Source of the DNA: Eunapius fragilis
Taxonomy: Eukaryota > Porifera > Demospongiae > Spongillida > Spongillidae
Direction of reading: 5' to 3'
Length of the DNA: 64,000 nt
NCBI GenBank assembly: GCA_963681505.1
Contig: OY811976.1
Span: forward strand, 3,113,139 to 3,177,138
Below, piece by piece: positions 16,002-58,749 of the stretch; position 1 is the first letter of the stretch, and each line of letters opens with the position of its first letter. The position numbers and the translations under genes are program-made. The notes below the pieces were generated by a model, which was not told the DNA's origin, made no database searches, and saw only the letters and a list, made by a program, of their open reading frames with translations.

Positions 16002-19000
16002 ATGGAGGCAGCCAGAGTTACCTTCGAAGAAAGTAACAACGTCCGGAGCGTTCAGAGTGTGGACTCCATATTCCGGTACAATCACGCCCAACAGCAAGAG
16101 CTACTGGCCTCAAAGCCGTGGGAGAAAGAGTAAGTCACGGACCCCCATTCTGATTCCAAGCCTGTTGAATCCGTTTGCGCGTCCGTTTGTGTTATAGCCC
16201 GCACTACTTCAAGGATGTTAAGATATCTTCCCTGGCGCTGCTCAAGATGGTGATGCACGCGCGCTCTGGCGGGAAACTGGAGGTGATGGGTTTGATGTTG
16301 GGCAAGACAGACGGTCCTAGCATGGTCGTCATGGATACCTTCGCCCTTCCCGTGGAGGGCACGGAAACCAGAGTGAACGCTCAAGCGGCGGCCTACGAGT
16401 ATATGTCTACGTACATCGACACGGCCAAGAAGGTTCGGTGTCATTCCATGTATTTGTGTACACGGGTCCGTAATTTGCTGCCGACTTGCTGCTAGATAAG
16501 GCTCACGTTGTGCATAATTGGGTAGGATAAAGTCTATATGTCAAATGGAATTTTTATCATGCACCATCATGATGGAAGAATAAAATCTTTCCCAGCAGTT
16601 CAGAGGATATATAACCAAAACATGAAACCAGGTGTCATCATCTGAGATATTCTGGAGCAGGATTGGTTGTAGCCATCAATGACCTGATGGTGGCCATCAG
16701 TGATCTGATGGTGGCCATCAGTGACCTGGTGGTGGCCATCAGTGACCTGGTTGTGGCCATCAGTGACCTGATGGTGGCCATCAGTGACCTGGTGGTGGCC
16801 ATCAGTGACCTGACGGTGGCCATCAGTGACCTGACGGTGGCCATCAGTGACCTGATGGTGGCCATCAGTGACCTGGTGGTGGCCATCAGTGACTCGCTGG
16901 TGGCCATCAGTGACCCGCTGGTGGCCATCAGTGACCCGCTGGTGGCCATCAGTGACCTGGTGGTGGCCATCAGTGACCTGGTGGTGGCCATCAGTGACCT
17001 GGTGGTGGCCATCAGTGACCTGGTGGTGGCCATCAGTGACCTGGTGGTGGCCATCAGTGACCTGGTGGTGGCCATCAGTGACCTGGTGGTGGCCATCAGT
17101 GACCTGGTGGTGGCCATCAGTGACCTGGTGGTGGCCATCAGTGACCTGGTGGTGGCCATCAGTGACCTGATGGTGGCCATCAGTGACCTGACGGTGGCCA
17201 TCAGTGACCTGGTGGTGGCCATCAGTGACCTGACGGTGGCCATCAGTGACCTGACTGTGGCCATCAGTGACCTGATGTACAATATGCAGATGTCTACAAC
17301 TACTTGACCAACGCTCCATGTCCCTATACCAGTGCAGACCTTGTATAAACCTACATGGCTTAGAGGGTACTGTACAAGGGCTTAGAGAGTACTGGGGCTT
17401 AGCTTAGAGGGTACAAGGGCTTAGAAGGTACAGGGTTCACATATTGTGTTAGCACTTATTTGACTTATTTGACTGTTAATTGTATGGGGGTGGGCGGGGG
17501 GGGGGGGGGGACCTTGTTCCCATTTCACTATTGAAATGCATCCAAGTCATTGTCATGCACATCCGAGTGAAGTCATCACCTTGCCTTGCTCATAGCCCAC
17601 CCCCTCCCTCCTCTCCTCCCTCCCCTTTCCTCCTCCCCTTCCCCACATTTTAAAAGTATGTTATCAAATGCATGAGTGCATAGGGTGGGGATGTAAGGAT
17701 CATCACTTTGACACCCTCCAGCCTGCATGCCCAAGCACGTCTCAGAGGTTTCCACTCCTCTCTCTGTTAGGCATCTTTATAGGAGAAAGGTCACACCCTT
17801 TTATAGCACCCTAAGCACAGCAGTCCATTCAATGAATTTAAAGGTTGACACAGTGGTGGCTTGATTAATGATGCAATGGTGATGTTTTTAAGTCCCCACT
17901 ATCATAGTGATGTCATTATTTTGTTAACCTGTTTCCTTGCTCACTGCACCATGCCATAAATCCTAATTGAGCATCTTCTAAACGCATTTTCACGATGTGA
18001 CAAAATCAGGTTTGTGATATTTTTTTCAGGTTTCAAAGCTTTAATGTTTAATTACACACTGTTACCTTTTCGCACTTAATGTAGGACCTTTCATAGCTGA
18101 GTTATAAAATGCTGAATTTTTAATCAGATGTACATTTCAATGGCAATGGCTTCTTTTACTTACCTTGAAAATTTTATCAAACTACCACAAGCCCGGGTTT
18201 TGCTATAAAACGTTACATTTATAAATTTATTTTTAAAAAATCCCATTCAACTGCATAGATACTTGTCCAGCCACTGACTGGAATATAAGGTCAGGTACAT
18301 GTAGCTAAGGCACTGGGGTATAAGGTTATGACCCAACCCCAGGTAGCTAAGGCACTGGGGTATAAGGTTATGACCCAACCCCAGGTAGCTAAGGCACTGG
18401 GGTATAAGGTTATGACTCAACCCCAGGTAGCTAAGGCACTGGGGTATAAGGTTATGACCCAACCCCAGGTAGCTAAGGCACTGGGGTATAAGGTTATGAC
18501 TCAACCCCAGGTAGCTAAGGCACTGGGGTATAAGGTTATGACTCAACCCCAGGTAGCTAAGGCACTGTGGTATAAGGTTATGACCCAACCCCAGGTAGCT
18601 AAGGCACTGGGGTATAAGGTTATGACCCAACCCCAGGTAGCTAAGGCACTGGGGTATAAGGTTATGACTCAACCCCAGGTAGCTAAGGCACTGGGGTATA
18701 AGGTTATGACTCAACCCCAGGTAGCTAAGGCACTGGGGTATAAGGTTATGACCCAACCCCAGGTAGCTAAGGCACTGGGGTATAAGGTTATGACCCAACC
18801 CCAGGTAGCTAAGGCACTGGGGTATAAGGTTATGACTCAACCCCAGGTAGCTAAGGCACTGGGGTATAAGGTTATGACCCAACCCCAGGTAGCTAAGGCA
18901 CTGGGGTATAAGGTTATGACTCAACCCCAGGTAGCTAAGGCACTGGGGTATAAGGTTATGACCCAACCCCAGGTAGCTAAGGCACTGGGGTATAAGGTTA

Positions 19001-22000
19001 TGACCCAACCCCAGGTAGCTAAGGCACTGGGGTATAAGGTTATGACCCAACCCCAGGTAGCTAAGGCACTGGGGTATAAGGTTATGACTCAACCCCAGGT
19101 AGCTAAGGCACTGGGGTATAAGGTTATGACTCAACCCCAGGTAGCTAAGGCACTGGGGTATAAGGTTATGACCCAACCCCAGGTAGCTAAGGCACTGGGG
19201 TATAAGGTTATGACTCAACCCCAGGTAGCTAAGGCACTGGGGTATAAGGTTATGACCCAACCCCAGGTAGCTAAGGCACTGTGGTATAAGGTTATGACCC
19301 AACCCCAGGTAGCTAAGGCACTGGGGTATAAGGTTATGACCCAACCCCAGGTAGCTAAGGCACTGGGGTATAAGGTTATGACCCAATCCCAGGTAGCTAA
19401 GGCACTGGGGTATAAGGTTATGACCCAACCCCAGGTAGCTAAGGCACTGGGGTATAAGGTTATGACTCAACCCCAGGTAGCTAAGGCACTGGGGTATAAG
19501 GTTATGACCCAACCCCAGGTAGCTAAGGCACTGGGGTATAAGGTTATGACTCAACCCCAGGTAGCTAAGGCACTGGGGTATAAGGTTATGACCCAACCCC
19601 AGGTAGCTAAGGCACTGTGGTATAAGGTTATGACCCAACCCCAGGTAGCTAAGGCACTGGGGTATAAGGTTATGACCCAACCCCAGGTAGCTAAGGCACT
19701 GGGGTATAAGGTTATGACCCAACCCCAGGTAGCTAAGGCACTGGGGTATAAGGTTATGACCCAACCCCAGGTAGCTAAGGCACTGTGGTATAAGGTTATG
19801 ACCCAACCCCAGGTAGCTAAGGCACTGGGGTATAAGGTTATGACTCAACCCCAGGTAGCTAAGGCACTGGGGTATAAGGTTATGACCCAACCCCAGGTAG
19901 CTAAGGCACTGGGGTATAAGGTTATGACTCAACCCCAGGTAGCTAAGGCACTGGGGTATAAGGTTATGACCCAACCCCAGGTAGCTAAGGCACTGGGGTA
20001 TAAGGTTATGACCCAACCCCAGGTAGCTAAGGCACTGGGGTATAAGGTTATGACCCAATCCCAGGTAGCTAAGGCACTGGGGTATAAGGTTATGACCCAA
20101 CCCCAGGTAGCTAAGGCACTGGGGTATAAGGTTATGACCCAACCCCAGGTAGCTAAGGCACTGTGGTATAAGGTTATGACCCAACCCCAGGTAGCTAAGG
20201 CACTGGGGTATAAGGTTATGACCCAACCCCAGGTAGCTAAGGCACTGGGGTATAAGGTTATGACCCAACCCCAGGTAGCTAAGGCACTGTGGTATAAGGT
20301 TATGACCCAACCCCAGGTAGCTAAGGCACTGGGGTATAAGGTTATGACTCAACCCCAGGTAGCTAAGGCACTGTGGTACAAGGTTATGACCCAACCCCAG
20401 GTAGCTAAGGCACTGGGGTATAAGGTTATGACTCAACCCCAGGTAGCTAAGGCACTGGGGTATAAGGTTATGACCCAACCCCAGGTAGCTAAGGCACTGT
20501 GGTACAAGGTTATGACCCAACCCCAGGTAGCTAAGGCACTGTGGTACAAGGTTATGACCCAACCCCAGGTAGCTAAGGCACTGGGGTATAAGGTTATGAC
20601 TCAACCCCAGGTAGCTAAGGCACTGGGGTATAAGGTTATGACTCAACCCCAGGTAGCTAAGGCACTGTGGTACAAGGTTATGACCCAACCCCAGGTAGCT
20701 AAGGCACTGTGGTACAAGGTTATGACCCAACCCCAGGTAGCTAAGGCACTGGGGTATAAGGTTATGACTCAACCCCAGGTAGCTAAGGCACTGGGGTATA
20801 AGGTTATGACCCAACCCCAGGTAGCTAAGGCACTGGGGTATAAGGTTATGACTCAACCCCAGGTAGCTAAGGCACTGGGGTATAAGGTTATGACTCAACC
20901 CCAGGTAGCTAAGGCACTGTGGTATAAGGTTATGACCCAACCCCAGGTAGCTAAGGCACTGTGGTATAAGGTTATGACCCAACCCCAGGTAGCTGAGGCA
21001 CTGGGGTATAAGGTTATGACCCAATCCCAGGTAGCTGAGGCACTGGGGTATAAGGTTATGACCCAACCCCAGGTAGCTGAGGCACTGGGGTATAAGGTTA
21101 TGACCCAACCCCAGGTAGCTAAGGCACTGGGGTATAAGGTTATGACCCAATCCCAGGTAGCTAAGGCACTGGGGTATAAGGTTATGACCCAACCCCAGGT
21201 AGCTAAGGCACTGGGGTATAAGGTTATGACCCAACCCCAGGTAGCTAAGGCACTGGGGTATAAGGTTATGACCCAACCCCAGGTAGCTAAGGCACTGGGG
21301 TATAAGGTTATGACCCAACCCCAGGTAGCTAAGGCACTGGGGTATAAGGTTACGGCCCAACCCCAGGTAGCTAAGGCACTGGGGTATAAGGTTACGACCC
21401 AACCCCAGGTAGCTAAGGCACTGTGGTATAAGGTTATGACCCAATCCCAGGTAGCTAAGGCACTGGGGTATAAGGTTATGACCCAACCCCAGGTAGCTAA
21501 GGCACTGGGGTATAAGGTTATGACCCAACCCCAGGTAGCTAAGGCACTGGGGTATAAGGTTATGGCCCAACCCCAGGTAGCTAAGGCACTGGGGTATAAG
21601 GTTACGGCCCAACCCCAGGTAGCTAAGGCACTGTGGTATAAGGTTATGACCCAACCCCAGGTAGCTAAGGCACTGGGGTATAAGGTTATGACCCAACCCC
21701 AGGTAGCTAAGGCACTGGGGTATAAGGTTATGACCCAATCCCAGGTAGCTAAGGCACTGTGGTATAAGGTTATGACCCAACCCCAGGTAGCTAAGGCACG
21801 GCGTGGTCATTTCATGGTAAATTGTATCACCTTACCTTCTCACATTGAGATGCCATTTCCGTATATATTCTCCCAACTCTAATACACAAAATTGCTTGTG
21901 TACCTTATGTTGTTCCGTTTATGAAATATGGCCACTTGCATAATTAATTATTTTGATCACCTTGGAAGAGCATTGCTTGTATGTGGTTAAGCATGGGTCC

Positions 22001-25000
22001 GTCTTTTTTGTACCAGGAAATGGGTATTAGATGGATGTACCCATTGGATGTGATATTTATTGAAGTGTGCTTAAGGGGTTAAAGTATATCATGAATTTTA
22101 ATGAGATTTTAAGGTAGCATAAATAATATAGTCCAAATCACACTAAACTTTATTTGAGGGACAGTTCTAATAACCTTATGCTTTTTTCTGTTTTAAATTG
22201 TTTGGGAAAGTAATTCGTTGGACTGCTAATGGTAAAATGTAGTTCTTGTAAGGTTTTAATGAACAGGGAACGGCAATGTTTACAAATGCAGTGCAGCTAT
22301 CATATAGGTGAATTGCATTTGCAAATCATGTGGGTTTCCTGATCACTAAAACCTTACAAGAACTATGTAAACTACTTGGCTGAACAATATCAATATTTTG
22401 GGGAGGCAACCAAAATGGCTGCTAGCCTTCATAATGGTATCCCAGTCCAATAGGTTTTGATTGTTGTCCTTCATAAAAAATTTGATGTGATTTGGACTAT
22501 ATTATTTGTGCTACCTTACAATTCATGATACACATGTATACTTTAACCCCTTAAGCATACTAAATATCACATCCAAAGGGTAAATCCATGTAATACCCAT
22601 TGTCTGGTGCAAAAAAGACGGACCCATGCTTAACAAGTACTGCTCTTCCAAACTCACAAAGGTGATCAAAATAATTGCATATAATTATGCGAGTGGCCAT
22701 ATTTCAGAAAACGGAACAACATAAGGTATACAAATATATTGCAATTTTGTATATTAGAGTTGGGAGAATATATATGGGACCTGCCTTGGGCTGGGTGGCT
22801 AATTATCTGCACAAAATACTGACCGAAGGGAAATATACTTGCTACATGGCAACACCCCTCCATCATTCTTTCCCTACTTGTTGCTAAGCCAATCCCTCAC
22901 TATTTTTAGCCCCTCTCTCATTGGTTATTATTAAGCCCCTCCCTCACTGGTTGTTGCTAAGCCCTTCGCCCATTGTTTGCTAAGGACATGGTGATTTAAC
23001 AGCAAGCCTACAAGGCAGTATATTGATAGCACTTGTAGCGTTTGCATATGTGTGCATGCATATGATTTGACCGCTTAATGTCCATTGACCTGAGTGGGTA
23101 CAATTGTACACCCGGGTGTATAGCAAAAAAAAAGTTTTTGCCGGGGCCTAGTTACACTGAATGCTATGGACACGTAGTGCAAGTCCTTTTATGATCGGGC
23201 TGAGATAACTAAGCCTTAAGTCCTTTTGGTACTCGGTAAAACAAGCCATGCTAGTTGACCTATCCATTAAGTTCTGCGAGGTACATCGAACGTGCTAAGG
23301 AAGGTTAAAAAGTACACGTTTTTAGCTACACTTGAACGGCAAATAGGTGCTTTAATGACTAGTACTTCTCACCAAAGCTAAGGCGATCGATAGCTACAAG
23401 CCAAGTCCTTGTTTTGTTTATTCTCTCTCTCTTATCAAAATTAAAGGGTGTGCAGCCACGTGGCATCAATACACAATACGGAGTGGTAACTAAGGTAGCT
23501 TTACCAGGCGGTACAGTTGTGTTGTTCAAAGTGACATAAGGAGAGACCGCGCTGAACGGAATGGAAAGGTCCACTAGCATGGCTTGTTTTACGAGTACCA
23601 AAAGGCTTAGTTATCTCAGCCCGATCATAAAAGGACTTGTACTACGTGTCTGTAGCATTCAGTGTAACTAGGCCCCTTGAAAGACCAGACGGCAAAAAAA
23701 ATACGCTCAGGTGGACATTCTGGACAACAGGCATTAACGCCTATGCACCTGAATGGACTGTATTACATATTCATTAAGCTATCTGCTTTATTATAACAAA
23801 GCAGGAAGCCCTCATTGCTGCTTACATGAGGTTATCTTGTAATGACAGAAACAGGTTCATTTTTCACATGTAAGCAGACACGACAAGGAGAGATAGTGGG
23901 TGTACGCGTCTGTACCACCGTGTAATGAGTCGCTGCAGTCACACTCCTCTTTGACCAAAGCTATTAGTGACATTACTTGTTTTGTCTTTCGATCACAGTA
24001 AGGTTTGTGTGAGCAGTGTAGATTAGTCCAATATCTTTTGTCATTTATACCGATAATGTGTAAATGATTGTGTAGTACTACTGCCTGTTTTTGGTTTGCA
24101 AAGTAAGGCCACTGCTGTAGCTATTGAATGCTAGGAGGACCCCTGCATCCCAGGGCTAGTAGGACCCCTGCCATCCCCGGGCTTGGAGGACCCCTACCAT
24201 CCCAGGGCTAGGAGGACCCCTGCCATCCCAGGGCTAGGAGGACCCCTGCCATCCCAGGGCTAGGAGGACCCCTGTCATCCCCGGGCCAGGAGGACTCCTG
24301 CCATCCCAGGGCTAGGAGGACCCCTGCCACCCCCGGGTTAGGAGGACCCCTGCCATCCCAGGACTAGGATGACCCCTGCCATCCCAGGGCTAGGAGGACC
24401 CCTGCCATCCCAGGGCTAGGAGGACCCCTGCCATCCCAGGACTAGGAGGACCCCTGCCATCCCACTATGGACTTACCATGTGCCTAACCAGTGGGCCAAA
24501 TGTAATCAGACAAGTTCATAACAGCGCAATTAATAAATTAACACCATCTGTTCAACTTGGCTATTCAATCCTAACCTGGCCCCCTTGGAGCGGATGGGTG
24601 TAACCAGAGAGGCCCAGTTCTAACAGGATGTTGTGCCCCTGTCCACAGGGGGACTGCAGGTTACACTGTACACATGTCATCCCACCTCCTACATGCTTCA
24701 ATTGGCACCAGCCCCCCCCCCCCCTCCCCCTCCCTCTCTCTCCAAACTGACATTAATGTTACCCCGTCATTTAATGTTCAGTAAGAGCAGTCCTACATGT
24801 ACATGTGATCTACTTATGGTCTGACTGCTGTGGAGTTGTATTGTACCCATGTCCCCCACTAGCCCTGCCCATGTCCCCCACTAGCCCTGCCCATGTCCCC
24901 CACTAGTCCTGCCCATGTCCCCCACTAGTCCTGCCCATGTCCCCCACTAGTCCTGCCCATGTCCCCCACTAGTCCTGCCCATGTCCCCCACTAGTCCTGC

Positions 25001-28000
25001 TCATGTCCCCCACTAGTCCTGCCCATGTCCCCCACTAGCCCTGCCCATGTCCCCCACTAGTCCTGCCCATGTCCCCCACTAGTCCTGCCCATGTCCCCCA
25101 CTAGTCCTGCCCATGTCCCCCACTAGTCCTGCCCATGTCCCCCACTAGTCCTGCTCATGTCCCCCACTAGTCCTGCCCATGTCCCCCACTAGCCCTGCCC
25201 ATGTCCCCCACTAGTCCTGCCCATGTCCCCCACTAGCCCTGCCCATGTCCCCCACTAGTCCTGCCCATGTCCCCCACTAGTCCTGCCCATGTCCCCCACT
25301 AGTCCTGCCCATGTCCCCCACTAGTCCTGCCCATGTCCCCCACTAGCCCTGCCCATGTCCCCCACTAGCCCTGCCCATGTCCCCCACTAGCCCTGCCCAT
25401 GTCCCCCACTAGTCCTTCTCATGTCCCCCACTAGTCCTGCCCATGTCCTCCACTAGTCCTTCTCATGTCCCCCACTAGTCCTGCCCATGTCCCCCACTAG
25501 TCCTGCCCATGTCCCCCACTAGCCCTGCCCATGTCCCCCACTATGACAAACTTAATAACCATTGACGTCAAGCAAATTCAACAAGACGTAATGTTTACTG
25601 AGCCAAGGCTTGTCCTCCTGGCATAACCATCTCCTCACTTAGAGGCTGTGATGGTCCAAGCCACCTCCTCTTGCTTCCCCACCAGAGCTTTTGTAAGGAC
25701 AAGACATATCAATAGTGACAGGACTCTTAGACACATGTACCTACATGTGGTTTGAAGCGAATTCGCCTCCTGCAGACAGGTACATGTATAAACTTTGAAC
25801 CCATAAGGGTAACCGCTACGGGTAAACCCATTTATACAAGTAAAGAAAAACATTCTCTAACGAGAGAGTTGGTGGGATATAGGAATTGGAGGCAATGGTG
25901 GTGCAAAAAGGAAGAGAACAAGGGTTTGGGAAAAGAAAAATGATACAAAAATCCTATATTTAGCACTTCTTTTGGTTCTGTTGCATTTACACGTGCTAAA
26001 TATAGGATTTTTGTATCATTTTTCTTTTCCCAAACCCTTGTTCTCTTCCTTTTTACACCACCATTGCCTCCAATTCCTATATCCCACCAACTTTCTTGTT
26101 AGAGAATGTTTTTCTTTACTTGTTTCCTCTATTTTTTTTTTTAATTATCATTTTTTAAAATCGATTATTAATACTGGCAAGTGGCCCCCCCCCCCCCCCC
26201 CCGCTTCAATTACCGTCACGAGCAGACGCTCGCTTTTGTTTGGGATCACGTTAAGGAACGCGGGAGAATTCTAACTCGTCGTCTCGTTGTTTAGCTCTCC
26301 TCTTTTGTCAATTCTAAATATACGTAAATGTCGCCATGGGAACGCTTCTATTTAACACTACGCATTACATAATGATTACGTATGTCAGTTTTATGCTTTA
26401 TTCATACATCTGATACTTGAAGATGGCCTTCCAGGAGATTCTAAAGCGATTGGTAAAATTGGCGCTCTTTAAAACCATTCCTATCCCGAGTTATGCTCAC
26501 CCGAGAATTAGAAGAAGAAGACGACGACGACGGAGAAGATTTGCCTGGGGACGAGGAAAAACACGAACTTTTTTGTTCTCTTAAAGCAAACAGTTTGAAG
26601 ACTGGAACAAAACATTAAAATGACCGTCTTTGCGTTCTGGTTCGATAGCAACAAAGAGCAACACTATCCGTTTCTCGGTACGCGAGTTATACGCGGGTCG
26701 AGTTTTTTTAATGATTTCACGACCCAGGTCAATTCCTATAGGAACTACTATCGTAGTTCCTGGTATCCTGTTCTCGAGCAGATGTCCATGGAGTTGGTAT
26801 GGTACTTATATACAAAGCTGTAATCATTCGGACATTATAGTAGTGAATTAGAGCATTTTTATAACAATGTAATTTAACATGAACTGTCCCATATACCCTA
26901 AGTTACAGCACGGGGCTGGCACTGCCTTGTTATCAGCACAAACCATGGTGATGAACAGTCATCCATGGTTGGCTGAAGGCCCCGGGTTGAGCTTCAAAGC
27001 TAGTAGGACCATAACATTTATGGTATGTACATGTATGTACATGGACTGTACATGTATATGCTAATAGATCTACCAGTACTGATAATCTGGGCTGAGACAC
27101 CTATAGATCCAGCAGATATGAAGTAATCATTCCATCAGTCTTAATCACTAGCTGATCACCTACCTCTGATTAGATACCTGCTCTGATTAGATTCATCATG
27201 CTTACGTAGTATGCCATGGTACAGGGTTTACCTTTTGTTTAAGCCATGCACCTGCACATATGCACCTTCCAGCACCTGCTGGTCTGTAGTGTAGTGGACA
27301 TGTGTAGTGTAGTGGACATGTGCAGTGTAGTGGACATGTGCAGTGTAGTGGACATGTACAGTGTAGTGGACATGTCCAGTGTAGTGGACATGTACAGTGT
27401 AGTGGACATGTGCAGTGTAGTGGACATGTACAGTGTAGTGGACATGTGCAGTGTAGTGGACATGTACAGTGTAGTGGACATGTACAGTGTAGTGGACATG
27501 TGCAGTGTAGTGGACATGTACAGTGTAGTGGACATGTACAGTGTAGTGGACATGTACAGTGTAGTGGACATGTGCAGTGTAGTGGACATGTGTAGTGTAG
27601 TGGACATGTACAGTGTAGTGGACATGTGCAGTGTAGTGGACATGTGCAGTGTAGTGGACATGTGCAGTGTAGTGGACATGTACAGTGTAGTGGACATGTG
27701 CAGTGTAGTGGACATGTACAGTGTAGTGGACATGTACAGTGTAGTGGACATGTGCAGTGTAGTGGACATGTGCAGTGTAGTGGACATGTGCAGTGTAGTG
27801 GACATGTACAGTGTAGTGGACATGTACAGTGTAGTGGACATGTACAGTGTAGTGGACATGTGCAGTGTAGTGGACATGTGCAGTGTAGTGGACATGTGTA
27901 GTGTAGTGGACATGTACAGTGTAGTGGACATGTGCAGTGTAGTGGACATGTGCAGTGTAGTGGACATGTGCAGTGTAGTGGACATGTACAGTGTAGTGGA

Positions 28001-30703
28001 CATGTACAGTGTAGTGGACATGTGCAGTGTAGTGGACATGTGCAGTGTAGTGGACATGTACAGTGTAGTGGACATGTGCAGTGTAGTGGACATGTACAGT
28101 GTAGTGGACATGTACAGTGTAGTGGACATGTGCAGTGTAGTGGACATGTGTAGTGTAGTGGACATGTACAGTGTAGTGGACATGTGCAGTGTAGTGGACA
28201 TGTGCAGTGTAGTGGACATGTGCAGTGTAGTGGACATGTACAGTGTAGTGGACATGTGCAGTGTAGTGGACATGTACAGTGTAGTGGACATGTACAGTGT
28301 AGTGGACATGTGCAGTGTAGTGGACATGTACAGTGTAGTGGACATGTACAGTGTAGTGGACATGTACAGTGTAGTGGACATGTGCAGTGTAGTGGACATG
28401 TGCAGTGTAGTGGACATGTACAGTGTAGTGGACATGTGCAGTGTAGTGGACATGTACAGTGTAGTGGACATGTACAGTGTAGTGGACATGTACAGTGTAG
28501 TGGACATGTGCAGTGTAGTGGACATGTGCAGTGTAGTGGACATGTACAGTGTAGTGGACATGTGCAGTGTAGTGGACATGTACAGTGTAGTGGACATGTA
28601 CAGTGTAGTGGACATGTGCAGTGTAGTGGACATGTGCAGTGTAGTGGACATGTACAGTGTAGTGGACATGTACAGTGTAGTGGACATGTACAGTGTAGTG
28701 GACATGTGCAGTGTAGTGGACATGTGCAGTGTAGTGGACATGTACAGTGTAGTGGACATGTGCAGTGTAGTGGACATGTACAGTGTAGTGGACATGTACA
28801 GTGTAGTGGACATGTGCAGTGTAGTGGACATGTACAGTGTAGTGGACATGTACAGTGTAGTGGACATGTACAGTGTAGTGGACATGTGCAGTGTAGTGGA
28901 CATGTGCAGTGTAGTGGACATGTACAGTGTAGTGGACATGTACAGTGTAGTGGACATGTACAGTGTAGTGGACATGTGCAGTGTAGTGGACATGTGCAGT
29001 GTAGTGGACATGTACAGTGTAGTGGACATGTGCAGTGTAGTGGACATGTACAGTGTAGTGGACATGTACAGTGTAGTGGACATGTGCAGTGTAGTGGACA
29101 TGTGCAGTGTAGTGGACATGTACAGTGTAGTGGACATGTACAGTGTAGTGGACATGTACAGTGTAGTGGACATGTGCAGTGTAGTGGACATGTGCAGTGT
29201 AGTGGACATGTACAGTGTAGTGGACATGTGCAGTGTAGTGGACATGTACAGTGTAGTGGACATGTACAGTGTAGTGGACATGTGCAGTGTAGTGGACATG
29301 TACAGTGTAGTGGACATGTACAGTGTAGTGGACATGTACAGTGTAGTGGACATGTGCAGTGTAGTGGACATGTGCAGTGTAGTGGACATGTACAGTGTAG
29401 TGGACATGTACAGTGTAGTGGACATGTACAGTGTAGTGGACATGTGCAGTGTAGTGGACATGTGCAGTGTAGTGGACATGTACAGTGTAGTGGACATGTG
29501 CAGTGTAGTGGACATGTACAGTGTAGTGGACATGTACAGTGTAGTGGACATGTGCAGTGTAGTGGACATGTACAGTGTAGTGGACATGTACAGTGTAGTG
29601 GACATGTACAGTGTAGTGGACATGTGCAGTGTAGTGGACATGTGCAGTGTAGTGGACATGTACAGTGTAGTGGACATGTGCAGTGTAGTGGACATGTGCA
29701 GTGTAGTGGACATGTGCAGTGTAGTGGACATGTGCAGTGTAGTGGACATGTGTAGTGTAGTGGACATGTACAGTGTAGTGGACATGTGCAGTGTAGTGGA
29801 CATGTACAGTGTAGTGGACATGTGCAGTGTAGTGGACATGTACAGTGTAGTGGACATGTGCAGTGTAGTGGACATGTACAGTGTAGTGGACATGTGCAGT
29901 GTAGTGGACATGTGTAGTGTAGTGGACATGTACAGTGTAGTGGACATGTACAGTGTAGTGGACATGTGCAGTGTAGTGGACATGTACAGTGTAGTGGACA
30001 TGTACAGTGTAGTGGACATGTGCAGTGTAGTGGACATGTGCAGTGTAGTGGACATGTGCAGTGTAGTGGACATGTACAGTGTAGTGGACATGTACAGTGT
30101 AGTGGACATGTACAGTGTAGTGGACATGTGCAGTGTAGTGGACATGTGCAGTGTAGTGGACATGTGCAGTGTAGTGGACATGTACAGTGTAGTGGACATG
30201 TACAGTGTAGTGGACATGTGCAGTGTAGTGGACATGTGCAGTGTAGTGGACATGTACAGTGTAGTGGACATGTACAGTGTAGTGGACATGTACAGTGTAG
30301 TGGACATGTGTAGTGTAGTGGACATGTGCAGTGTAGTGGACATGTACAGTGTAGTGGACATGTGCAGTGTAGTGGACAATTGGGAACTACCCCCAAGTAC
30401 ATGTGCACCAGTGTATGAACAAACGTCCACGTGACATTTACATACATGTTCCAGTACCTTCCATCAGAACATGTGCCTGTTGATCACATTCACAACAATG
30501 TCTGACAAATAAGGCTCCCCAGAATAATACTTGTATACAAATTTGGGGTGTGGCTGAGGGCGTGTTCTCCTGAATTATGCAGCCAGTACGTCTAATAATA
30601 ATTCAGTAAACTTTCGAACCTCTTGTGCTCAGACGTTGTGTGGTATGTGTTGTATGCATAGGTTGCATGCCTTTGGATGTATGTGGTCCTTCAAACTTGT
30701 TTG

Positions 30704-30734
<31 letters not shown>

Positions 30735-33321
30735 TGTACATGTGTGTGTGGTGTGTAATGCATTATGTATCAGTATTGTTGTTGATCTGGCTTCATCTTA
30801 AAAACCACAGTGTGTACACATACATGTATACACACACAATCACACACACATGCGAACATACGCATACGCACACACACACACACATACACACACGCACACA
30901 CACACACATACACACATGCACTGTAACTCACAAAACACCTGCATTTTTATACATATCATAGTTAACACATGCATGCAACATCCCACCATGTACCCAGGTA
31001 GGGGTGTCAATAATGCCTTGTATAACATGTACACATACATAACCTCCAGGTGGCCTTCTTTAATCATTACTGAGTGCTTTTTTGGGGGTAGGGAGGGTGG
31101 GAGATGTAACCCATTGCATTTGAGGCTGTATATTCCAACATTTATGAGGTCCTGGTCCTACCATCACCTCACGACATGCACGTGGTTCTACCATCACCTC
31201 ATGACATGCATGTGGTCCTACCATCACCTCATGACAATGCATGTGGTCCTACCATCACCTCACAACATGCATGTGGTCCTACCATCACCTCACGACATGC
31301 ATGTGGTCCTACCATCACCTCATGACATGCATGAGGTCCTACCATCACCTCATGACATGCATGTGGTCCTACCATCACCTCACTATATTATGGTACGATG
31401 TCTTATGCATATGTATGTTCAGATCAGCTTTGGCTTTCCCTGAATCAGAAATGGAGCACTTGTAGCCTTTATCGTTTAGTGCCTCGTCCATAAGTTGAAA
31501 CAAATGTAATTGTTTTTAGTGTGCCCACCACACGCACGTATTGATAAGGCTTTGACTTGCAACTGTGTGAAGTCTTTACTACAAGTGACATCCTATATAT
31601 TTTTTCTCTTCGTTGGACCTGACATGTGATTGTACATGTACTTTGCTGAACATTAATTGCTGTAGTAGCGCGCACTCTTGTTGGACATATTCCTTCAACC
31701 ACTGACTATCGTGATAATCATTGCGATCAATCCCAGCTAAAAGGGGGGGGGGGGGGGGGGGGGCTGTGGTTTGGTGTCATTACTATTGACCTTGGCGGGA
31801 CCGCCATCTTTGTTGTGTGGAACGTTCCTTTTTCATTCATAGCACTCCCATTGTATGCCTCCTTGTGTCCATTGGTCCAGGTGGGTCATTGATTGGGTAT
31901 CTTTGTCCTGCCTGAAAGTTGTGGGAAGTTTTGTTGTGGTCATTAATTAGTGTTTAGTTTAGTTGTTGCTTCAAAGAATATGCCATCAATAAGATACCCC
32001 CCCCCCCCCCCCCCTACCCTCCCCCTCCAACCCCATGCCTCCTTTGTAGTCCTCCCACTGCTATGTGTATGTGCTCATCAGAAGTCATGTGTGCACATGT
32101 CATGAATAGCACTCCTTTTAAGGTTACTGCCAACCTAATAAGTGATCAGGTGGCTACTATATACATGTAGGGTTATAGTTACAACCTAATAAGTGATCAG
32201 GTGGCTAGTGAGTACCCTTCCACAAACCACACCCCCATATTAGTGGTCTGCCTCTGTGTTATATGATAGCATAACATTTGATGTCTTCTCTAACTGTACA
32301 TGATCCTTCTCTCATACTCTCTCCCCACTCCCTTCTCTCACCCTCCCTCCCTCCCTCTCCCACCCTCACTATCTCCCCTCCGTCACACTCTTTACCTCCA
32401 CATGTTTGTGGGATTTTGGTCTGGGGAGGGGAGGTATAGATCACTCGGACTAAGGCTACATAGTGTGTAGGCTACAGAAAGTAATGTGGATTAGTAGAAG
32501 GGGAGGTGGATGGAGATGATGAGGGGAGGTGGATGGAGATGATGAGGGGAGGTGAATGGAGAGGATGAGGGGAGGTGGATGGAGATGATGAGGGGAGGTG
32601 GATGGAGAGGATGAGGGGAGGTGGATGGAGATGATGAGGGGAGGTGGATGGAGATGACGAGGGGAGGTGGATGGAATGTGGTAGGTGTGGTGTGTTTGGC
32701 AAGATGTATTGAATACTCCCCTGAATGCTCTCCCACTCCTCCACCCACAGCTGAAGTAGTGTGTTGTATCATTGGAGATGAGCCACACTCTCCACCCAAG
32801 GATGCATTCTTTTGATGTCAGAGTAGTTTACACTGGTTGTCTAAACTAAAATTAAGTCATGGTCATCTTCAAAGCTAGTGCCTGGCTTTTATGTGTGGTG
32901 TGAGTTTTGTGTGTATGGGGGTGTGTGTGTTCATGTGTGTGTGTGCACATGTGTGTGTGTGTGTGTGTGTGGTGTGCACATGTGTGTGTGTGTGGGTGTG
33001 CACATGTGTGTGTGTATGTGGGTGTGCACATGTGTGTGTGGGTGTGCACATGTGTGTGTGTGTGGAGGGGGGTGAGGCTGGTATTATGTGTGTATGTATG
33101 TGTGCACGTGTTTCACATACCTGTGCAGTGCATAATGCAGTTCAAACATGATAGGACCTTCCTGTGTGTGTGTGTGTACACATTTGGTGGGAAGCATTGT
33201 CCTGTGTACATGGGCAGGTCCCACTGGTCCTAGTGTTGATGAGGAGTTGAATGCCATTGTGGTGTTACCTAGCACCTGTGTGGCCAGAGGATGGTTTTGT
33301 TTTTGTTTGTTTGTATGTGCA

Positions 33322-33399
<78 letters not shown>

Positions 33400-33541
33400 C
33401 GCATGTGTCAGTGTGGCCACCTGTCACATATCACATGCACACACACAGATAGAGGGACTACATACACCTCTGTTACTTGTATCTGTAGGGGTGGTACCTT
33501 TAGTTTTATCAGGTGGGTGACACACACACACACACACATGC

Positions 33542-33572
<31 letters not shown>

Positions 33573-33990
33573 ACAGTACATCCCTGTTGTCAGAGCAGGA
33601 GGTGGTCATTCTGTGGATATCAGTAGGGTCCATCCGTCTGAGTACAGGGGGTCTGGTCAGTGTGTGTGTGTGTGTGTACCTGTACATGGCACTGGCTCTT
33701 CTCAGAGAGGGAGTCAGCTGTTGGAGACAATGGAGGCAGCTGGAAGTGTTGCCATCCTGTACCAAGTGTGGCTGCTAGGAGTCGTCACATGTCTGTTGCC
33801 TTAGAAACCCTCCAACACACTCCACCACAGTCCACCATCATCCTCACACCCTTAACCACTTTGCACTCCTCAGGGCCCTCTGCATCACCACTATCTGTGT
33901 TGAGTAGTACTCTGTAGTATAAGTCCATACAGCTCATGGGATGCAATGGTTGCGTGTGTGTGTGTGTGTGTGTGTGTGCGTGTGTGTGTG

Positions 33991-34046
<56 letters not shown>

Positions 34047-34171
34047 CTATGCTTGTTTGTGTGGAGTTGTCGTGGTTTTAAAGACCTCCTGAAGGTGTGT
34101 GTGTTTATCCGACTGGTGTGTGAGTCTAGACATGATGTGCACACTGGCACGCACACACACACACACACACG

Positions 34172-34222
<51 letters not shown>

Positions 34223-36250
34223 AGGCACCAACACAGTGGGTTAAGTAAATGCTTGTGCAGTGATGCTCATAGGATGAACAAGGATGAAAATTATTGTCTC
34301 AATGGCCCTATTTGTAGCACTTGTACAGCCTCTCTCCCCTTTGGTATGCGCATTCTAATTGCCACCTCTGATGTGGTGATGTGACCACCTATGTGTCCAA
34401 GTATTCATGAAATAATGAGAATTGAAATATCCAGCTGGTGATCTCACTGTGTGTGATGTTGTGGATGTGATGGTGAGAATGTGATGGTGCTGATTATCTT
34501 TGCAGGTGGGGAGACTGGAGAATGCCATCGGCTGGTACCACAGTCACCCAGGGTATGGGTGCTGGCTTTCTGGCATAGATGTCAGCACACAGATGATGAA
34601 TCAGACTTACCAAGAGCCATGGGTGGCCATTGTGGTATGTGGGCTGGGAGGGGGGGGGGGGGGGGGTCTTAACAGGAGTCATGGGTCCATGTGGAGGCCC
34701 GGGGGGGGGGGGGGGGGGGGGGTGTAAGGGAGGGGGGGGGGACTTAACAGGAGTCATGGTCATGGGTCCATGTGGAGGGGGAGTGGGGGGAAGGGGGGGG
34801 GGGGGGGGGGGGGCAACAAAAGACTTGTCATGTGTGTATCTACTGTATGTGTACATTTCACAATGCATTCTGTTTCCATTGTCAGGTTGATCCAATCAGA
34901 ACAATGTCTTCTGGCAAAGTCAACCTTGGTGCATTCAGGACGTACCCAAAGGTATGTGGCGAGGGAGGAGGATAAATGGGATGACCTTTGCTCATTGGAT
35001 GGTGGTGTGGTAATATCTTGGTGATGAGATCAAAATGTGAAGATGACATATGACCCATATATGGTGTGGTTCTTTTCACCTCGGGGCATGCACCAGGGCT
35101 ACACACCTACGTCTGATGGTCCCTCAGAGTACCAGACCATCCCCTTGGAGAAGATTGAAGACTTTGGGGTCCACTGCAAGAGGTCAGTTGGTGGGGGGGG
35201 GGGGGGGGGGGGGTGACTTGGACTGTGTTTTGAGGACGGATTGTATTTATTTTTCAAAGTGAAATTATTTTGTGTTGGAAGGCTTGCGATCAAAAGCTGG
35301 TTTACTGATTGTATATGATATAGATGGTCTTGCATGGCCCTACAGGTACTACAATCTGGAGGTGTCGTACTTCAAGTCCTCCCTTGATTCTCATTTGCTT
35401 GACCTCCTGTGGAACAAGTACTGGGTCAGCACTCTGTCCACCTGCTCCATACTGACAGTCAGTGCTGTGTGTGGTGTGTGTGCATGTGGTTTGTGCGATG
35501 TGTACATGTGTGGTCTGGAATGCATGTGGTGTGTTTGTGGTGTGTGTGTGTGGTGGGTGGTGGGTTTTATTTATAGATGACACAGCCTGACTTATGCTGT
35601 GCATCTATTAGAATGCAGACTACACCACACAGCAAATGTCAGATCTGACGCAGAAGCTAGAGCGAGTGGACTATCAGGTCAGACAGAATATTTGTTTTTG
35701 GGTGTGTGTGTTACACAACAACCAGTATCCAACTTACACATGGACGTTACCACTGCTTTGAAATTATGAGTTTGTGGGGGTGGCAATGAACAACAAAAGA
35801 TACCACCATCTACGTATCTAGAATGAAATCAAAAACCTGTCATGTTACATATATGCGTATGCACTGCCAGAAATTCAGTCACACACACACACACACACAC
35901 ACGCACACACACACATGTCATATTAGGGTATGGATACATCCTGTGTGATATAAAGTACGTTCTCTCTCCCTCCCTCCCTCTTTATCCAGTCACCTAGTGT
36001 GTATCGCTTCAGTAAAGCATCTGACACTGGAGCAGCAGGAGGAGGAGGAGGAGGGGCCAAAGGAGAGGGTCGGCTAACCAAAGCTGTCCAGGATTGGTAA
36101 TCACTTTTTAATTCTAAACAGCACCTCCATTTAAATAACCTTCTCTCATCTATATCTGTGTTTGGTAGCTCCAAGACGACAATTGAAGTGCTCCATGGTC
36201 TTATGGGGCAGGTGCTGAAGGACCGGCTGTTCAATTCCCAGGCGCCATGA
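16002..36250 (+). CDS. CSN5: COP9 signalosome subunit 5 (CSN5/JAB1), 9 exons, 336 aa
   Basis: Exons: 16002-16129, 16198-16432, 34506-34634, 34886-34951, 35097-35182, 35346-35457, 35612-35677, 35990-36096, 36169-36250. All junctions are GT-AG and phases agree throughout. The 336-residue product is close to the usual length (human about 334). CSN5 is the catalytic JAMM/MPN+ subunit that removes NEDD8 from cullins. All metal and catalytic residues are present: E71 in [10 protein letters not shown], and H133, H135, S143 and D146 in [14 protein letters not shown]. The Ins-1-like segment and C-terminal helices ([13 protein letters not shown]) are also conserved. A glycine run in exon 8 ([11 protein letters not shown]) is a local insertion in the C-terminal linker. 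Intron 1 is 68 bp, but intron 2 (16433-34505) is 18,073 bp and filled with tandem arrays and foldback elements. The intron 2 donor GTTCGG is weak. The first ATG gives the expected N-terminus ahead of SVDSIFRY. Frizzled follows 203 bp downstream on the same strand. Confidence 0.97.
16661..17276. repeat. 21-bp minisatellite, about 29 copies (CSN5 intron 2)
   Basis: The unit GTGGCCATCAGTGACCTGGT plus one base repeats with variants at the DNNGGTG position (CTGGTG, CTGATG, CTGACG, CCGCTG). The CCGCTG and TCGCTG variants sit together at about 16890-16950. Because the period is 21, several frames stay open on both strands. Confidence 0.97.
17277..18300. other. Intronic stretch, no gene
   Basis: Part of CSN5 intron 2. 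Contains a short repeat of GCTTAGAGGGTAC (17350-17430), a G run (about 17496-17510) and a pyrimidine-rich stretch (17597-17646). Confidence 0.5.
18301..21799. repeat. 42-bp minisatellite, about 83 copies (CSN5 intron 2)
   Basis: The 42-bp unit is GTAGCTAAGGCACTGGGGTA followed by TAAGGTTATGACCCAACCCC and AG. About 83 units run without interruption. Variants are local: ACTGTGGTACAAGG only at about 20370-20720, GCTGAGGCA only in three consecutive units near 20990-21090, and TTACGGCCC only near 21350-21610. The array is open on both strands across nearly 3.5 kb because 42 is divisible by three. Confidence 0.98.
21862..22774. mobile_element. Foldback element with about 280-bp inverted arms
   Basis: The left arm (about 21862-22141) and right arm (about 22487-22774) are imperfect inverted repeats: TATATTCTCCCAACTCTAAT against ATTAGAGTTGGGAGAATATA at the tips, and ATAGTCCAAATCAC against GTGATTTGGACTAT at the inner ends. 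A second inverted pair lies inside (AGTTCTTGTAAGGTTTTAAT near 22241 and ACCTTACAAGAACT near 22350). There is no coding content. It starts only about 60 bp after the 42-bp array. Confidence 0.85.
23126..23700. mobile_element. Foldback element with about 120-bp arms
   Basis: The arm 23144-23265 (GGGGCCTAGTTACACTGAAT and onward, including GATCGGGCTGAGATAACTAA) is inverted at 23563-23676. The inner 300 bp holds one short minus-strand frame (23359-23601) without a recognisable domain. Probably a non-autonomous DNA transposon within CSN5 intron 2. Confidence 0.8.
23701..24129. other. Intronic stretch, nothing recognised
   Basis: Part of CSN5 intron 2 with no repeat or coding feature identified. 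Confidence 0.4.
24130..24464. repeat. 26-bp minisatellite, about 13 copies
   Basis: The unit GCTAGGAGGACCCCTGCCAT plus CCCAGG repeats with variants (CCCGGG, GACTAGG). It lies inside CSN5 intron 2. Confidence 0.93.
24846..25543. repeat. 22-bp minisatellite, about 32 copies
   Basis: The unit CCATGTCCCCCACTAGTCCT plus GC repeats. Variants are CCCTGC against TCCTGC, and TCCTTCT twice near the 3' end. It lies inside CSN5 intron 2. Confidence 0.96.
25836..26755 (+). mobile_element. Composite repeat block: hairpin MITE plus about 630-bp tail (inverted copy at 57420-58333)
   Basis: The first 288 bp (25836-26123) is a complete ACAAGTAA-family hairpin MITE with nearly perfect arms. It is followed by a poly-C tract (26186-26202) and a tail that matches 57420-58043 in reverse complement. 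Within the tail, 26422-26586 is an open frame starting [20 protein letters not shown] and containing ten consecutive arginines. In the other copy this frame is stopped after KRLV, so it is not clearly a gene. The element class is not recognised. Confidence 0.7.
26756..27285. other. Intronic stretch, nothing recognised
   Basis: Part of CSN5 intron 2 ahead of the 18-bp array. Short ATGTACATG-rich palindromes lie near 27027-27060. Confidence 0.4.
27286..30377. repeat. 18-bp minisatellite, about 172 copies, with higher-order pattern
   Basis: The unit TGTAGTGGACATGTACAG alternates with TGTAGTGGACATGTGCAG. TGTGTAG occurs in place of TGTACAG or TGTGCAG in a few units, and there is a single CCAG unit near 27370. 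The A-type and G-type units recur in a larger ordered pattern, clearest from about 28300 to 29640. The period divisible by three leaves frames open on both strands for about 3 kb. Confidence 0.98.
30378..31147. repeat. Intronic TG/CA microsatellites
   Basis: (TG)n at about 30700-30760 and (CA)n at about 30833-30917 lie in opposite sense about 100 bp apart, so they can pair. The rest is unremarkable intron sequence. Confidence 0.85.
31148..31382. repeat. 30-bp minisatellite, about 8 copies
   Basis: The unit GTCCTACCATCACCTCATGA plus CATGCATGTG repeats with few variants. It lies inside CSN5 intron 2. Confidence 0.94.
31383..32497. other. Intronic stretch with poly-G, poly-C and a short duplication
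   Basis: A G run at about 31743-31763 and a C run at about 31998-32014 lie about 235 bp apart and could pair. CTAATAAGTGATCAGGTGGC occurs twice (near 32137 and 32185). No gene seen. Confidence 0.6.
32498..32674. repeat. 23-bp minisatellite, about 7.5 copies
   Basis: The unit GAGGGGAGGTGGATGGAGAT plus GAT repeats with GAGGAT variants. It lies inside CSN5 intron 2. Confidence 0.92.
32900..34220. repeat. Cluster of long TG and CA microsatellites
   Basis: Blocks at about 32925-33065 (TG with GTGTGCACATG spacers), 33325-33396 (nearly pure TG), 33522-33572 (CA), 33955-34042 (TG) and 34151-34218 (CA). Opposite-sense blocks lie close together. All sit in the last 1.6 kb of CSN5 intron 2. Confidence 0.95.
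34635..34885. repeat. G-tract cluster in CSN5 intron 3
   Basis: Three G-rich runs (about 34649-34666, 34699-34740, 34784-34813) fill much of this 251-bp intron. Two flank near-duplicate copies of TTAACAGGAGTCATGG. They could form G-quadruplexes in DNA or pre-mRNA. Homopolymer length may be inexact in the assembly. Confidence 0.85.
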
Positions 36251-51344: not shown

Positions 51345-51990
51345 GATCTATGTGTGTGCATATATTGGGACAGTTTCCGAGAAAATGATATATCGCTATA
51401 ATTACATATACAAAAGTTATAAAAGTGATTCACATTTGAATTGCAATAACTTTTTATCCGCACATTCCTCAGCTGTACAAATCACATACATTTGCACTGA
51501 TAATGCGCAGGTCACATAAGCATGAATATGATTACAAGTACATTTACTGAGGTACATGTAAACGTCACTAGGCATATTGGACCTCACCCAGAGGCTGCCG
51601 GACTTTGTCATGTGTAGCCCATGTCATTGACCCCTTCCACGAGTCCCACCTGAGGAATGTACAGCCTCACCAGTACCATGCTTCCCTGCTTACAATGCAG
51701 TATCTCGCTTACTCAATACATGCGTGTGCAATGATGACATAGCCATGGTCCTCAGGTGGGAGGGGCCAATGACATGGGCTACGCATCACAAAGTCAGGCA
51801 GCCTTTGGGTGAGGTCCAGAATGTACATGCTTCCCTGGTGAGAATGCAGTATCTCACTTACTCAATGCATGGTGTGTGCAATGATGGCATAGCCATGGTC
51901 CTCAGGTGGGAGGGGCCAATGACATGGGCTACACATGACAAAGACAGACAGCCTTTGGGTGAGGTCCAGAATGTACAGCCTCACCAGTAT
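51345..51990. repeat. SRCR 3' flank repeat with an internal tandem duplication and inverted part
   Basis: 51345-51660 matches 54750-55010 (GGGACAGTTTCCGAGAAA and onward). From about 51690 a unit of roughly 150 bp containing ATGGTCCTCAGGTGGGAGGG is repeated in tandem (51700-51830 and 51835-51985), and parts of it are inverted relative to 51570-51660 (GGACCTCACCCAGAGGCTGC against GCAGCCTTTGGGTGAGGTCC). Confidence 0.8.
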
Positions 51991-54120: not shown

Positions 54121-54222
54121 CACCACACCACCACCACCACCACCACCACCACCACACCACCACCACCACCACCACCACCACCACCACCACCACCACCACC
54201 ACCACCACCACCACCACCACCA
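54121..54222. repeat. (CAC)n trinucleotide repeat
   Basis: About 100 bp of nearly pure CAC with two small interruptions (ACACCACC). It ends where the duplicated SRCR-intron segment begins. Confidence 0.95.
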
Positions 54223-57419: not shown

Positions 57420-58333
57420 ACAATAGTTCCTATATAGGAATTGACCCGGGTCGTGAATATCATAAAAAAACGCAACCCGCGTATAACTCGCGTACCGAGA
57501 AACGGATAGTGTTGCTCTTTGTTGCTATCGATCCAAAAGGCAAAGGCGGTCATTTTAGTGTTTTACTCCAGTCTTCAAACTGTTTGCTTTAAGAGAACAA
57601 AAAAAGTTCGTGTTTTACCTCGTCCCCAGGCCAAATCTTCTCCCCGTCAACGTCGTCGTCGTCGTCTTCTAATTCTCGGGTGAGTATAACTCTGGATAGG
57701 AACGGTTTTATAGAGCGCCGATTATACCAATCGCTTTAGAATCTCCTGAAAGGACATCTTCAAGTATCAGATGTATGAATAAAGCATAAAACTGATACAC
57801 GTAATCATTACGTAATACCTAGTGGCGTTCCCATGGCGAAATTTACGTATATTTAGAATTGTACAAACGAAAAGGAGAGCAGACGACGAGTTAGAATTCT
57901 CTCGCGTTCCTTACAGTGATCCCAAACAAAAGCGGACGTCTGCTAGTGACGGTAATTGAAGCGGGGGAGGGGGGGGGGGGGGGGGGGGGGCAACTTGCCA
58001 GTAGTAATAATCGATAAAAAATGATAATGAAAAAATTGAGGAAACAAGTAAAGAAAAACATTCTCTAACGAGAAAGTTGGTGGGATATAGGAATTGGAGG
58101 CAAAGGTGGTGTAAAAAGGAAGGAAACAAGGTTTTGGGAAAAGATAAATGATACTAAAAATCCTATATTTAACACGTGTAAATGTAACAGAACCAAATGA
58201 AGTGCTAAATATAGGATTTTTAGTATCATTTATCTTTTCCCAAAACCTTGTTTCCTTCCTTTTTACACCACCTTTGCCTCCAATTCCTATAACCCACCAA
58301 CTTTCTCGTTAGAGAATGTTTTTCTTTACTTGT
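57420..58333 (-). mobile_element. Composite repeat block, inverted copy of 25836-26755
   Basis: 58044-58333 is a complete hairpin MITE of the ACAAGTAA family (290 bp, nearly perfect arms). 57420-58043 is the reverse complement of the tail at 26124-26755, including the homopolymer (here poly-G, about 57965-57990) and the CGTCGTCGTCGTC segment. The two blocks lie about 31 kb apart in opposite orientation. Confidence 0.75.
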
Positions 58334-58749
58334 GTAACATAAAATACAAAACAGATATTAATCAATGTACACTAATTCATAACAGCTGTGGTAGTAATAC
58401 GTAGATGTGGTTGGATTCTAATAAATTTAAAATGTCCTCATAGACTACACTTCTAAACCACTCCGGGGGGGAGGGGGGGGGGGGGGTTGTGAGGTGTTAA
58501 AAATTCATTGAAATATATTTTCACATTCAGTGTGACCCAGTACATAATTTCAGAGGGGTAGAAACAAGAAATTAAAAAAAAAGCAGAATCCCCCCCCTAC
58601 ACTGACGGTACATTCATAGATATTATACGGTGGTAGATTATTACGAATGAGGGGCAGAGACAACGGGATCCATGCAGATCTTGATACTTCTTGTCAAGAC
58701 TTATCAAGGGATTTATACTCACATACAGATAAAATAATACAGTAAAACA
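58334..58749. other. Short non-coding stretch with G and C runs
   Basis: G-rich run at about 58466-58486 and a short C run near 58589-58595. It lies 3' of the minus-strand gene and may include its 3' untranslated region. Confidence 0.4.

Follow-up and report, generated by a model that had tools for sequence, protein, structure and literature searches.

Seven minisatellites in a long CSN5 intron of the sponge Eunapius fragilis: probably one outcome of a genome-wide process

Introduction

Why should a single intron of a conserved gene contain seven different tandem arrays, and does the cause lie at that site or in the genome that surrounds it? The question is raised by intron 2 of CSN5 in the freshwater sponge Eunapius fragilis. 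We analysed a window of 64 kb (C6:3,113,139-3,177,138 in an assembly of 218.94 Mb and 24 contigs; positions without a contig name are those of the window), in which the CSN5 gene occupies 16002-36250 on the + strand with nine exons. An initial annotation, made from the sequence alone, had suggested that a local property breeds the tandem repeats. Our comparison with other parts of the genome indicates that CSN5 intron 2 is probably a strong instance of a genome-wide sponge process that makes private tandem arrays from short non-coding stretches. Chromosome ends and long introns are likely to be its preferred places, the tendency belonging to the genome and not to a unique site.

Results

Seven arrays in one intron

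The CSN5 introns measure, in order, 68, 18073, 251, 145, 163, 154, 312 and 72 bp, and all follow the GT-AG rule. Intron 2 (16433..34505, + strand, phase 0) separates exon 2 (16198..16432) from exon 3 (34506..34634), as defined by the gene model and protein alignment. The joined product of 336 amino acids matches human CSN5 of PDB entry 4d10 over 330 residues (E-value 3.2e-154); the alignment passes the exon 2/exon 3 junction without a gap and lacks no CSN5 residues around intron 2. This agrees with the initial annotation, which had read the interval as one intron of 18,073 bp between cleanly joining exons and had given the remaining introns as 68 to about 310 bp (68-312 bp for the seven introns of the gene model). 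Intron 2 lies 3.1 Mb from the contig start, and the gene is carried on chromosome 6 of 23, with 43.5% G+C (PMC12616128).

Tandem Repeats Finder (TRF) recovered all seven periods named in that annotation: 21 bp x29.1 (16664..17274), 42 bp x83.3 (18301..21799), 26 bp x12.9 (24130..24464), 22 bp x31.7 (24846..25543), 18 bp x171.7 (27288..30378), 30 bp x7.7 (31153..31383) and 23 bp x7.7 (32499..32675). The arrays total 8,642 bp, or 48% of the intron, where about half had been estimated, and comparison among them bears out that they are mutually unrelated in sequence. A minisatellite has a unit of roughly 10-60 bp repeated in head-to-tail copies, and the seven arrays fit this definition by their arrangement, unit size and non-coding status. 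The TG/CA blocks noticed earlier fall into a zone toward the 3' end of the intron (30698..34219), with tracts at 30698-30756, 30830-30921, 32892-33065, 33324-33399, 33520-33572, 33954-34042 and 34139-34219. All TRF rows combined cover 9,610 bp (53%). The non-array part amounts to 9,431 bp with 43% G+C; decayed arrays were rejected as its filler, its weak tandem signal being 9.5% compared with 12.4% and 8.0% in the flanks.

Arrays are frequent elsewhere, above all near contig ends

Within the window, arrays are concentrated in the intron: the flanking 45,927 bp hold 894 bp in arrays (1.9%), about 25-fold below the coverage of intron 2. Beyond the window the contrast fades. Twenty 10-kb stretches, each taken from position 500,001 of contigs C1-C20, had a mean array coverage of 27%; 19 of them contained an array and five were denser in arrays than CSN5 intron 2. 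On average they held 4.4 arrays per 10 kb, the same as intron 2 (eight arrays by the identical rule). One stretch (L019, C11:500001-510000) is tandem-repeat DNA over all of its 10 kb (periods 115-370 bp); it was counted in the density figures and left out of the CpG test described below.

Since these twenty stretches lie near contig ends, sites at the other ends and in the interior were also sampled. Half of 12 sites placed 500 kb from the opposite contig end carried an array, with 31% coverage. From 140 random draws, 27 sites were chosen as interior and cut to 1-2 kb, the nearest being 1.28 Mb from a contig end; one of them (L035) consisted only of N and was dropped. Arrays were found at 6 of the 26 readable interior sites, with a mean coverage of 6%. 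Coverage thus averaged 28% at the 32 sites 500 kb from contig ends and 6% at the 26 interior sites (permutation p 0.001).

Most of the long introns sampled hold arrays

Intron lengths elsewhere were taken as gaps between adjacent domain matches and are therefore approximate; a pair was left uncounted if over 12 profile positions were missing or over 40 overlapped, so that some long introns may be missed, and 2 of 34 TCP-1 rows and 4 of 72 kinesin rows were omitted. This gave 102 lengths: 52 from myosin heads (median 223, maximum 3,702 bp), 19 from TCP-1 (median 194, maximum 1,520 bp) and 31 from kinesin (median 277, maximum 3,490 bp). Among introns of at least 500 bp, we read the 11 longest of 14 from myosin, all five from TCP-1 and none of the eight from kinesin.

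Arrays were present in 10 of these 16 introns (myosin 545-3741 bp, TCP-1 524-1520 bp) and made up 36% of their 19,378 bp, whereas eight of the 40 1-kb tiles from the interior had one (Fisher p 0.004). The three longest introns read had one array each (25 bp x90, 37 bp x44 and 21 bp x21), and array length tended to be greater in longer introns (Spearman 0.66, n 16). Among the introns more than 1.5 Mb from a contig end, four of six held an array, four of these six belonging to one C11 gene. Within this sample, array growth has occurred in the majority of long introns.

Mostly private units and near-uniform copies

Of the 114 arrays sampled, just five are similar to one found at a different site in the sample, and these five are all TG- or CCA-rich. 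When the six copies that open the 42-bp array were searched against 218.9 Mb, with a method that passes over very common words, they matched nothing but their own array, and no second site for the unit was found. Elsewhere in the genome, sequences related to the 22-bp unit reach no more than 80% identity, and those related to the 21-bp unit no more than 72%.

Copies within the two largest arrays are nearly uniform. The 42-bp array (3.5 kb) has seven variant types and no singletons in 83 copies, and the 18-bp array has three variant types in 171 copies, practically a single two-state site, a sign that the arrays grew recently or are steadily homogenised. A variant-order test of the 18-bp array found a block of 26 units (468 bp) repeated adjacent to itself, where 200 shuffles reached at most 15, so growth of this array has been at least partly blockwise. 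TRF reported 0% indels in all seven arrays, their variants being substitutions. More diverged copies stand at the ends of the 21-, 26-, 22- and 18-bp arrays, but not of the 42- or 23-bp arrays. Among 112 sampled arrays, 41 have a period divisible by 3, close to the one third that chance would give.

Units are poor in CpG

The pooled unit G+C of the sampled arrays is 52%, and three of the seven CSN5 units exceed 0.60. The 67 units from the end samples contain 10 CpG, compared with 41 (standard deviation, SD, 7) in unique DNA matched for length and composition. As a control, GpC was counted in the same units and was also reduced (54 compared with 87 in matched DNA), so the CpG deficit is partly not specific to CpG. 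The seven CSN5 units have one CpG where matched DNA has 6.3 (SD 2.7), and six of the seven CSN5 arrays together hold 14 where base composition predicts about 490. Because the copies are so uniform, these counts suggest either a preference for seeds free of CpG or a loss of methylated CpG that then spread through the array. CpG methylation is 37% in the related sponge Ephydatia muelleri (PMC7385117). An exception to the CpG-poor pattern was seen at one site (L041, C1:6324929-6326928), which has two related 52-bp arrays with a CpG-rich unit.

No gene found within the intron

A hidden exon or a second gene inside the interval would have undermined the reading as one intron. Besides the complete protein alignment, an Rfam search at gathering scores gave no match within intron 2 or the window, ARAGORN found no tRNA in the window, and Pfam gave no match in six non-array intron frames or in the 18-bp array frame. 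Two frames of the 42-bp array did match Pfam, but only by adding up scores across repeats; no individual stretch passed.

That the arrays might themselves be coding, as a nested repeat-protein gene in the 42-bp and 18-bp arrays, is prompted by their open frames of more than 3 kb: stop-to-stop frames of 1197 and 1194 amino acids in the 42-bp array (+ and -) and of 1052-1093 amino acids on both strands of the 18-bp array. An open consensus frame, however, tends to remain open through every copy when the period is a multiple of 3. When substitutions were moved at random, the first + frame of the 42-bp array acquired no stop in 63% of the simulated cases, and the first + and three - frames of the 18-bp array acquired none in any case (the simulation excludes the 30-bp array row, which is out of register). 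Not all of the seven periods are multiples of 3 (22, 23 and 26 are not), and no credible Pfam match exists in the 42-bp or 18-bp frames. We regard a coding role as extremely improbable.

Dispersed elements and other features of the window

The foldback elements mentioned in the initial annotation could be traced to two dispersed elements by inverted-repeat and genome searches. The first (25836..26123) has 131-nt arms that are 98% complementary and a high genome copy number, with 2,289 first-look candidates genome-wide; the 40 candidates scored, the intron copy included, match at 91-100% and are spread over 19 contigs. A second copy of it lies inside the window at 58034-58337. The other element (23134..23685), with 84-nt arms 92% complementary, is a member of a diverged inverted-repeat family with 336 first-look candidates, 40 of which were scored. 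Members of this family are found on many contigs, some copies being paired ends about 1-2 kb apart.

Long G runs occur in CSN5 introns 3 and 5 (34646-34813 and 35193-35213), and further G or C runs recur across the window. Outside the intron there are a run of 35 CAC triplets (54121-54222) and a 150-bp doublet (51677-51977). A putative Frizzled-like reading frame begins at about 36453, some 200 bp past the CSN5 stop codon.

Discussion

How the arrays might have arisen

The genome-wide process could work as follows. A short stretch would be duplicated via replication slippage or break repair and would then grow, homogenised by unequal exchange or conversion and partly in multi-unit blocks. Arrays would be kept in introns, which tolerate changes in length, and at recombination-prone chromosome ends, and array growth would then be largely what sets how long such introns become. 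CSN5 intron 2 might in this way have accumulated its seven arrays, together with dispersed element copies and TG/CA tracts, and no function of the arrays for CSN5 need be supposed.

Several observations weigh against this reading or narrow it. CSN5 intron 2, at 18.1 kb, is about five times the longest of the 102 measured introns (3.7 kb), and its non-array part alone is 9.4 kb; together with the 1.9% coverage of the surroundings, this means that a local factor may add to the general process. Outside the window 286 kb were sampled, which is some 0.13% of the genome. Among the five stretches denser than the intron, L019 is a satellite with a period of 175-370 bp and no minisatellite, and the bias toward ends becomes borderline once each site is represented by a single 1-kb tile scored for presence (median p 0.051). 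Six of the 16 long introns have no array, four of the 16 come from a single C11 gene, and the array in one of the ten array-bearing introns (L062) is TG-rich. The 18-bp unit is not strictly private, as many arrays elsewhere are 64-78% identical to it, and genome-wide unit searches covered four of the seven units (42, 22, 21 and 18 bp). The block-duplication test was run on four of the seven arrays (18, 42, 22 and 21 bp), and apart from the 18-bp array none of them had a repeated block longer than those in the shuffles.

Alternative explanations

A cause peculiar to the site would place a hotspot of meiotic recombination, replication stalling or fragility on chromosome 6, repeatedly breeding minisatellites there. 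The sharp rise in coverage relative to the rest of the window, the long TG/CA tracts beside the arrays, the outlying length of the intron and the seven unrelated units, which imply seven separate seedings, would all suit such a hotspot. Of the local property proposed in the initial annotation, the local concentration stands. A site-peculiar cause is, however, not needed, because equal or higher density was found at 5 of 20 other stretches, the mean array number over all 20 is the same as in the intron, and arrays occur in 10 of 16 other long introns. In addition, the G+C of the non-array intron (0.43) is close to that of the interior samples (0.44), giving no sign of strong GC-biased conversion. 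G-quadruplexes were rejected as a common cause of the arrays, units capable of forming them numbering 15 of 108 compared with 13.5 in shuffled units. We consider a chromosome 6 hotspot unlikely.

It is very improbable that the long intron, arrays included, has been retained for a role in CSN5 such as transcription delay, an enhancer or splicing control. Intron 2 is the sole long intron of the gene and its donor, GTTCGG, is non-consensus, two points in favour of such a role, but the nearly identical copies and a largest unit at no other genome site point to youth rather than to conserved elements, similar arrays occur in unrelated genes and elsewhere, and the Rfam and tRNA searches were empty. 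An assembly artefact, in which repeats were collapsed, expanded or misjoined, has just as little to recommend it. The average read is shorter than the whole of intron 2, yet the HiFi data (184.53 Gb in 18.74 million reads) have a mean length of about 9.8 kb, more than the largest array of 3.5 kb, and the assembly has a quality value of 60 (PMC12616128); moreover, the window contains no N and the exons on either side of intron 2 come from one gene.

Relation to known tandem-repeat systems

If the genome-wide process holds true, array growth would be a main cause of long introns in Eunapius fragilis, housekeeping genes included. In an array-rich sponge with HiFi data one could then measure directly the process of mutation, how it depends on chromosome position and the exclusion of CpG. 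A search of open-licence literature found no title on intronic minisatellites in sponges, and the genome paper describes no tandem repeats in the sections covered here (PMC12616128).

The sponge arrays share with classical minisatellites their unit size, variation by substitution and, in some arrays, diverged end copies. They differ in their large share of the sampled genome (about 28% near contig ends and 6% in the interior) and in the near absence of CpG from their units. Human subtelomeric variable number tandem repeats with units above 15 bp are concentrated toward chromosome ends, an enrichment stated, in the part of that study used here, for repeats above 60% G+C within 5 Mb of ends (PMC7608644). 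The sponge has a comparable enrichment at its contig ends, whereas its pooled unit G+C stays below that level and interior introns are marked by arrays as well.

The closest phenomenon described is the "sequence stuttering" of introns on avian dot chromosomes (PMC12954441). Both systems have local tandem clusters with units of tens of bases, one or several per intron, which leave exons intact and drive intron length, and in both intergenic DNA is affected too. The sponge counterparts of tandem-expanded introns are CSN5 intron 2 and 10 of the 16 further introns read that measure 500 bp or more. In birds, according to the portions of the avian study drawn on here, stuttering is tied to GC-rich dot chromosomes, the affected parts lack interspersed repeats, exon edges are sometimes copied and length polymorphism is strong (PMC12954441). 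The sponge arrays are more regular and lie on ordinary chromosomes with dispersed elements among them; chromosome 6, with its 43.5% G+C and dispersed elements, is no GC-rich, interspersed-repeat-free dot chromosome. When the seven CSN5 units were compared with the nine CSN5 exons, their scores (14-22) never exceeded the maximum from 200 shuffles, the lowest P among the seven tests being 0.01 (18-bp unit), with exon ends within 2 bases of the final model; the test covers CSN5 only, and exon copying is occasional in birds too. We would therefore say that the sponge intron appears to resemble avian stuttering, without claiming membership, since CSN5 exon-edge copies were not found and the chromosome is ordinary. 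The same portions of the avian study report intron stuttering in birds and in GC-rich genes of a gerbil (data not shown), and in no other vertebrates examined (PMC12954441). Freshwater sponges might, as a tentative analogy about which we are more doubtful than confident, represent a whole-genome invertebrate counterpart of avian sequence stuttering, in which private minisatellites seeded by CpG-free stretches would be the main determinant of long-intron length and these lengths would be highly polymorphic between individuals.
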